Below, one piece after another: positions 56,620-57,890 of a DNA stretch of 64,000 bases; positions within the stretch are counted from its first letter, which is position 1, and every line of letters starts with the position of its first letter. A program made the translations under genes and the position numbers. The DNA lies in contig JAMCPM010000002.1 of NCBI GenBank assembly GCA_023382335.1, forward strand, positions 1-64,000, written 5' to 3'. This DNA is from Actinomycetota bacterium (lineage in GTDB: Bacteria > Actinomycetota > Thermoleophilia > BMS3ABIN01). The notes below the pieces were generated by a model that was given only the letters and a program-made list of their open reading frames with translations, did not search any database and was not told the origin of the DNA.

Positions 56620-56740
56620 TTATTCACCCTCCGGGAATGGGATTTACCGGACAATTTCTATTTCTCCGCCGGTGGGTAAAATAAAACCAATTATCGAGCA
56701 AATACGGCGATTTCCAATGTTAAGCCTTGCCGAAAAAGGT

Positions 56741-56767
56741 TTGCCGCACACCTTTTGGGGTTATAAT
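56741..56767 (+). promoter_or_regulatory. Promoter of ncRNA 1
   Basis: A perfect TATAAT (56762-56767) with TTGCCG at 56741-56746 (15-base spacer). Transcription would begin near 56774-56775, exactly where the inverted-repeat RNA starts. The same TTGCCG stands before the second copy. Confidence 0.6.
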
Positions 56768-56774
56768 GAGTGTA

Positions 56775-56923
56775 GGTCCCAAGGAGTCCGAAAGACTTGC
56801 TGGAGATCTGGCAAAGAAGCCAAGCGGAGGAAATGCGGAGGTAAAAAGCCGCAGAGTACGGTGAAGGTTGGTGAAGCCCGGTCGGAGAAGGCAAGGAAGG
56901 AAGGTTTCTTGGGACTTTTCTTT
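56775..56923 (+). ncRNA. Putative rod-shaped non-coding RNA, copy 1 (6S-like?)
   Basis: About 149 nt. The ends close on each other: GTCCCAAG (56776-56783) with CTTGGGAC (56908-56915), followed by TTTTCTTT. An inner stem pairs CTTGC (56796-56800) with GCAAG (56891-56895), and an apical hairpin TGCGG/CCGCA (56834-56838/56849-56853) lies at the exact midpoint. This long rod with internal bubbles, starting at a promoter and ending in a T-run, recalls 6S RNA. GAGTACGGT at 56854-56862 is shared with copy 2. A leader of the downstream lipoprotein gene is an alternative. Confidence 0.55.
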
Positions 56924-57016
56924 GCCCGGTTTCAGGCCGATCGCCACCCCGTTTCAGCGCCAAATGATTTTCCTCGCAAATACCGCCTAAAACTTTTTTT
57001 CGGGGTTTTCTACCCC

Positions 57017-57045
57017 TTGCCGGCGGCCTGCCCGAGGAATAGAAT
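57017..57045 (+). promoter_or_regulatory. Promoter of ncRNA 2
   Basis: TTGCCG (57017-57022), 17 bases, TAGAAT (57040-57045). Predicted start at 57052-57053, the first base of the second inverted-repeat RNA. The -35 hexamer is identical to that proposed for copy 1. Confidence 0.65.
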
Positions 57046-57052
57046 CTATGAC

Positions 57053-57212
57053 GGTCCCAAGGAATCGGACGATGATCATTCCGGGTTACTCCGGAAGCTG
57101 CCTGGTTCGGAAACGCGGAGCTTCGCGCCCGTGGAGTACGGTATCAGCCGGGAAGTTCCTCTCGCGATGGGGAAAGTTGATCCGAAGGTTCCTTGGGACC
57201 TGATTTCGTTTT
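57053..57212 (+). ncRNA. Putative rod-shaped non-coding RNA, copy 2 (6S-like?)
   Basis: About 150-160 nt. GGTCCCAAGGAA (57053-57064) pairs perfectly with 57189-57200, continued by TCGGA (57065-57069) with TCCGA (57181-57185) after a small bulge; TGATTTCGTTTT follows. A side hairpin TTCCGG/CCGGAA (57079-57084/57091-57096) and a near-central hairpin CGCG/CGCG (57114-57117/57124-57127) fill the body. GAGTACGGT (57134-57142) sits at nearly the same distance from the 5' end as in copy 1. Shared ends, motif and promoter with a diverged middle point to a duplicated structured RNA. Confidence 0.55.
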
Positions 57213-57239
57213 AACCAAGCCCACCGCCGCCGGAGGTCC

Positions 57240-57890
57240 ATGATGCGCCACAAACCAGCGGGTTTCCTTCTGCCATCAATGGCGCTTTCACTGACATCGA
57301 TCCTGGCGTTTTCCCTCATGTTCGCCGCGGCGCTCCTGGTGCAGTCCGGCTGCGGGAGCTCTTCCTCCGATGTCACATCCGCGGGCGTTTCCAGCTCAGC
57401 CACCGAGGCTGTAACCACCCCGGCCGCCACCACGCGCACCGATATGGTTTCCACCCAGACCGTGACCGTCGAACAGCCGGCGTCTTTTGGAACCGGCAGC
57501 GCCGCGCCACAAACGGTCGGAACCTTGATTGATGGATTGCAGCTTAGTGATATCCGCTGGTCCGACCATGGCGATTATTTCCGCATCGTTTTCGAGATGA
57601 CCACCACCGACGGCAAACAGGTGACCGAGGTTCCCCATGCTAACGCCACCATGTCGGCCGACGGCAAGCAGGTCAGCGTCATTCTCGGCGGCATCCGGGG
57701 GCTCGGCAACAACGCTGATGTGACTACCGCGAATCTGAGCGTGGGAGACGCCGTCGTGGTTTCCATGCAGAGAGTCCCGTCGGGGGACGATCAGGCCCTT
57801 ATCTATAACATCAACCTCGCCAAGGCCTCTACATATACGCTCTCCGGGCTGGACTCGCCCGGCCGCATCGTCGTCGACATCACCAAATAA
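57240..57890 (+). CDS. AMIN-like domain lipoprotein
   Basis: A 216-residue protein with a signal peptide ending in the lipobox LVQSGC (Cys about 38), a Ser/Thr/Ala linker, and a C-terminal domain (about 95-216) with IRWSDHGDYFRIVFEMTT and SGLDSPGRIVVDIT, the pattern of actinobacterial AMIN-like domains that may bind envelope polymers. The ATG is preceded by CCGGAGG. It follows the second ncRNA by about 30 bases. Confidence 0.72.
   Translation: MMRHKPAGFLLPSMALSLTSILAFSLMFAAALLVQSGCGSSSSDVTSAGVSSSATEAVTTPAATTRTDMVSTQTVTVEQPASFGTGSAAPQTVGTLIDGLQLSDIRWSDHGDYFRIVFEMTTTDGKQVTEVPHANATMSADGKQVSVILGGIRGLGNNADVTTANLSVGDAVVVSMQRVPSGDDQALIYNINLAKASTYTLSGLDSPGRIVVDITK

Follow-up and report, generated by a model that had tools for sequence, protein, structure and literature searches.

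Two tandem units, A and B, each predicted to encode a structured RNA, lie upstream of a lipoprotein gene in the window, by which we mean the whole 64,000-nt stretch of DNA that was analysed. The features of the locus are as follows.

56697–56706, forward strand: AGCAAATACG, a degenerate copy of the unit B upstream element, at −77 of A
56741–56746, forward strand: possible −35 box of A, TTGCCG, spacer 15
56762–56767, forward strand: −10 box of A, TATAAT; orthologs keep a −10 box at equal distance from +1
56774–56920, forward strand: putative RNA unit A (type A ncRNA gene), from covariance model R1, compensatory pairs and a match to model R3
56775–56788, forward strand: 5' strand of helix P1 of A, partner 56903–56916, 99.5% of cells paired, three double-change pairs
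56820–56825, forward strand: 5' strand of helix P5 of A, partner 56866–56871, double changes in 6 of 6 pairs across orthologs
56827–56859, forward strand: apical module of A, with GAGGAAA (56827–56833), a hairpin (56834–56838/56849–56853) and AGTAC (56855–56859)
56903–56916, forward strand: 3' strand of P1 of A, with a T-run next, terminator-like
56975–56984, forward strand: CGCAAATACC, possible activator site at −77 of B, seen ahead of 9 of 11 B copies
57017–57045, forward strand: promoter of B from a promoter scan, TTGCCG (57017), 17-nt spacer, TAGAAT (57040)
57052–57204, forward strand: putative RNA unit B, a paralog of A with extra hairpins, from an R1 match and covariation in alignment A3
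57053–57066, forward strand: 5' strand of P1 of B, partner 57187–57200, 98% of cells paired, three double-change pairs
57109–57139, forward strand: apical module of B, GGAAA ... AGTAC
57240–57890, forward strand: lipoprotein gene with an AMIN-like domain, 35–39 nt after B and a conserved neighbour in relatives

The domain assignment of the lipoprotein gene is tentative, because its PF24837 score of 25.2 bits is under the 27-bit cut-off. A sequence-only reading of this DNA had described the two units as twin regulatory RNA genes with matching promoters and self-closing ends, and both were found where it had placed them: each starts with GGTCCCAAGGA (at 56775 in A and 57053 in B), carries GAGTACGGT about 80 nt in (56854 and 57134) and ends in a complementary closing strand (56903–56916 and 57187–57200). 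Its finer claims held in part. A sigma-70-type −10 box ends 6 nt before the start of both units and the promoter of B is complete, but the −35 box of A, with its spacer of 15, is poorer than had been implied. A T-run (TTTTC) directly follows the closing stem of A, whereas B has only a weaker T-rich tail.

Chance can be excluded as the origin of this pattern, because the 472-nt region holding both units had matches in 16 of the 40 genomes searched (the window's own included) and because a covariance model of A recovers B (E 3.9e-7). The predicted folds are also more stable than those of dinucleotide shuffles (z −2.3 for A, −3.2 for B). A 243-aa open reading frame spans both units, yet their conservation takes the form of compensatory base pairing, and a protein-coding reading was rejected. 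Neither unit matched Rfam 15 at gathering score; laxer Rfam searches that included family members returned chance-level matches only, and no description of such an RNA was found in the literature searched. The window's sole gathering-score Rfam match is a c-di-GMP-I riboswitch at 2616–2693 on the forward strand (RF01051, 42.5 bits).

For the structure, 13 orthologs of unit A were aligned and a rod of six helices (P1, P2, P3, P4, P5 and P6) was written by hand. P1, with 14 bp, unites both ends of the RNA and P6 is apical, while the alignment of the short P4 is poor, with 46% pairing; across the whole structure, 95% of the cells pair. The sequence-only reading had staked itself on compensatory changes in relatives, and these are present: 17 of the 37 pairs (48 cells) changed on both sides yet remained paired, a count reached by none of 500 shuffles. 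Sliding one side of the helices by 1–3 columns brought pairing down to 31–53% and left 1–5 double-change pairs. In the wider family (50 distinct sequences), double changes affect 31 of the 37 pairs and 364 cells, again with 0 of 500 shuffles reaching this, in an alignment that was fitted to the model so that the counts lean towards structure. Unit B, which has two hairpins beyond those of A, gave a more modest signal, with eight double-change pairs in an alignment (A3) of nine sequences. Since covariation exceeds the shuffled and slid controls for A and the wider family, and more modestly for B, comparative sequence evidence establishes A and B as structured RNAs. The same covariation strongly supports the earlier description of tandem regulatory-type RNAs whose ends still pair while their sequence drifts.

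Three covariance models were used: R1, built from the 13 unit A orthologs without B; R2, a broad model; and R3, built from the type-H RNAs described below. R1 scored unit A itself, one of its building sequences, at 153.6 bits and found, besides B, a third copy on another contig of the same genome; R2 revealed a fourth, bringing the paralogs in the window's genome to four (A, B, C and D). The type C copy lies before a DAHP synthase gene and D between murJ and a UPF0182 gene; the neighbours seen beside the RNAs comprise pgk, lipoprotein, murJ, UPF0182, DAHP synthase, fpg and carB genes. When 399 genomes of the class were scanned, 34 were positive, and these belong to just two families: f1, that of the window itself, and f5, whose genomes carry up to six copies. 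In a tree, the B, D and f5 copies form one group each. A pattern scan of genome contigs gave 17 matches, all from actinobacterial or Thermoleophilia MAGs, which assigns the window to Thermoleophilia. A phage origin was rejected after the same kind of scan of IMG/VR found no A-type core; the H-type pattern had three matches there, in apparently protein-coding sequence and none fitting R3.

Some observations concern the surroundings of individual copies. The type C copy (L052, G000:C6:133918-134039) precedes genes for DAHP synthase, prephenate dehydrogenase and aroA, and its TATAAA-like box is followed by an additional 5' hairpin. At eight f5 loci (L036, L037, L038, L042, L043, L045, L047 and L050) the main f5 copy lies about 200–400 nt from an opposite-strand tRNA gene, and in L043, L047 and L082 an fpg (mutM) gene follows downstream, either next or nearby.

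Outside the helices, conservation is strongest in purine-rich internal loops, such as GAGGAAA opposite AGUAC, which are flanked by covarying helices. The apical module of A, whose AGUA/GAA internal loop is loop-E-like by inspection, is near-invariant in type A and f5 copies, occurs in most D copies and is for the most part shared by B, while the hairpin loops differ among A, B and D. By eye the module resembles the GGAAA...GUAAAA...AGUAC apical module of the Dictyoglomi-1 RNA (RF01703). That model matched at only 14.5 bits (E 0.91) against a gathering score of 150 bits and was absent for three other members, and a relation is not supported.

This pattern of conservation bears on how the RNAs would act. 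Small RNAs that regulate mRNAs in trans by base pairing typically have an independent promoter and a terminator and occur in multiple copies, and units A and B could belong with these. Against this, the hairpin loops differ between A, B and D, and conservation among unpaired positions falls on purine-rich internal loops enclosed by covarying helices. Conserved internal loops together with variable hairpin loops fit protein recognition better than mRNA pairing, and we consider trans-acting base pairing improbable. A protein partner, in turn, is suggested by the fact that the paralogs conserve the closing stem and the purine-rich internal loops rather than an exposed single-stranded seed.

Beyond the class, R2 gave weak matches in other actinobacterial classes. 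In one of these, type-H RNAs were recovered from 24 of 36 genomes at E ≤ 0.1, compared with about four expected by chance; a few of the individual matches (e.g. L106 and L115) look unlike members by eye. The type-H RNAs are about 175 nt long, share P1 and the adjoining loop, show covariation in 21 of 36 pairs and start at a near-consensus promoter. R3, which contains no sequence of the window's class, found unit A at E 2.2e-6 together with further A and C copies from f1, which indicates that the RNA reaches beyond Thermoleophilia. That detection works reciprocally, from R2 to H and from R3 to A, argues for common descent of the A-type and type-H RNAs, with a cross-class signal that lies mostly in P1 and its neighbourhood. 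Directly 3' of many type-H RNAs, beside unrelated genes, we also observed a strongly conserved hairpin, CCCCCCATGGTTAATAGAGGCACGGGTCTCGAGAACCCACTGGGGGG (L093, L097, L102, L107, L108, L114, L118 and L120); the two of these loci scanned whole, L093 and L097, gave no Rfam match for it.

The RNAs recall 6S RNA (SsrS, RF00013), which is duplicated in some bacteria, and the sequence-only reading had suggested a pair of 6S-like or other regulatory RNAs. As 6S RNAs, A and B would be a divergent pair, binding the holoenzyme of RNA polymerase and mimicking an open promoter, and the similar length, the long rod with paired 5' and 3' ends, the sigma-70 promoter and the duplication all agree with it. Yet RF00013 remained unmatched in 56650–57300 even at E ≤ 10, and a separate full-length 6S RNA (80.4 bits) lies on another contig of the window's genome; all 19 f1 genomes, that is, the window's and the 18 relatives searched, carry one. 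The new RNA differs further in its other conserved loops and in its number, up to six per genome, and the unit A consensus forms a rod interrupted by short internal loops of purines rather than the large open central bubble, with GC-rich helices on either side, that 6S demands. The 6S reading fails because a true 6S coexists in the same genomes, and we regard a divergent 6S pair as very unlikely.

A related proposal is an extra RNA of the Ms1 type, binding core polymerase with a sequence unrelated to 6S, which would be a special case of protein binding. Ms1 is a core-RNAP-binding RNA of other actinobacteria with a 6S-like shape (PMC4191392, PMC9130861), and the rod architecture fits; both RNAs are actinobacterial and stand-alone, and Ms1 binds protein, as is presumed for the new one. 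Ms1, however, is reported from other orders and with conserved neighbours, a HAD hydrolase and an oxidoreductase (PMC9130861), that are not seen beside A–D, and the portions of these reports available to us describe no multi-copy tandem arrangement such as that of the new RNA. We consider an Ms1-type identity doubtful, on a par with trans-acting base pairing.

Several GGA triplets in A and B, and the multi-copy state, would also suit sponges of the CsrB/RsmZ type that sequester CsrA/RsmA through many GGA motifs. The GGA sites, however, sit in internal loops and stems, and the new RNA is a strongly covarying rod and not a series of repeated short hairpins. This candidate was rejected as practically negligible, since CsrA (PF02599) is absent from the window's 99% complete genome, with the control positive in known CsrA genomes; only some other, unrelated protein that binds GGA would revive it.

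Being absent from Rfam, conserved with covariation in several actinobacterial groups and distinct from 6S, A and B look like genes of an undescribed bacterial RNA family, and we are highly confident that this family is real.

We then compared the units' flanks across types. The −10 box ends 4–8 nt ahead of the unit in nearly all of them, and a promoter scoring 9 or more out of 12 sits exactly at the unit start in 8 of 14 A, 8 of 9 B, 18 of 21 f5 and 18 of 18 H copies, against a background of 1% at random positions. Of 68 copies, 64 are followed by a U-run (at least 5 T of 8), compared with a background of 12%, and U-runs were seen after A, D, f5 and H. Type D has a recognisable sigma-70 promoter in only one of six copies. 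Five D copies (L053, L057, L059, L061 and L101) lack a sigma-70 −35 box and have in common a box with CGATA immediately ahead of the start, which could be a site for a different sigma factor. With genes defined as open reading frames of 110 or more codons rather than by annotation, the unit is convergent with the next gene in 5 of 5 D, 13 of 18 H and 11 of 20 f5 copies. Types B and C, in contrast, lie just before same-strand genes, and the feature after unit A in most genomes is unit B, not a gene.

These data also bear on whether the elements are cis-acting leaders, either attenuators or riboswitches, with P1 as an attenuator hairpin controlling the downstream gene. In 5 of 8 copies, 31–35 nt (ORF-caller distance) separate unit B from the lipoprotein gene that follows it, the B unit of the window ends in only a weak T-rich tail, and C precedes the DAHP synthase gene; at one locus (L010, about 1700–1800) unit B is missing, yet its −10 region, CATAAAATCCAGCGGTCC, is retained before the lipoprotein gene. 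As a general explanation, however, a leader is opposed by the A-then-B order, by the U-runs, and by the orientation of D (always) and H (mostly), which as convergent units are not leaders; one element before unrelated genes further argues against a single ligand. We consider this explanation unlikely, if somewhat less so than the Ms1 type. Promoters, U-runs and convergent neighbours (D, H and half of f5) instead point to mainly stand-alone RNAs, whose closing stem would double as terminator. A leader role is possible where B stands just before the lipoprotein start codon and C before the aromatic-biosynthesis operon; unit B may thus also act as leader of the lipoprotein gene, and the type C copy L052 may be a leader as well.

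Upstream of the promoters, CGCAAATNCC-like sites occur at −77 to −75 of most B copies and at −66/−65 in two, about one helical turn nearer, and similar sites lie near −77 of several A copies. By its position the CGCAAATNCC element looks like a candidate activator site common to the A and B RNAs, and a shared element at about −77 suggests their common control.

Taken together, we favour, with a probability of roughly 0.6, the reading that A and B are paralogous genes of stand-alone structured RNAs that bind, titrate or regulate a protein. Comparative evidence supports RNAs that start from a sigma-70 promoter of their own, at the 5' strand of P1, fold into an irregular rod in which P1 pairs both ends and, in most types, end at the U-run after P1. 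Paralogs occupy several conserved chromosomal places, and one activator at the −77 element would probably switch on A and B together, so that copy number and induction would set the RNA dose. The RNA would then bind its protein partner and titrate or regulate it, by the same logic as 6S, Ms1 and CsrB but as a different family, and unit B would probably double as leader of the lipoprotein gene.

When structured RNAs occur in several copies and have promoters of their own, they often regulate a central machine. It is conceivable, though we put it forward only tentatively, that the units belong to an undescribed superfamily of abundant, multi-copy RNAs of a regulatory housekeeping type that several deep Actinomycetota classes share, possibly a third controller of the transcription or translation machinery beside 6S and Ms1. 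If expressed, they would represent a structured RNA family that is widespread yet has no Rfam entry and that occurs in multiple copies per genome, in lineages documented chiefly by metagenomes. The covariance models and the member list make the question testable now, and identifying the partner would uncover a new level of regulation and provide a marker RNA for use in metatranscriptomes.
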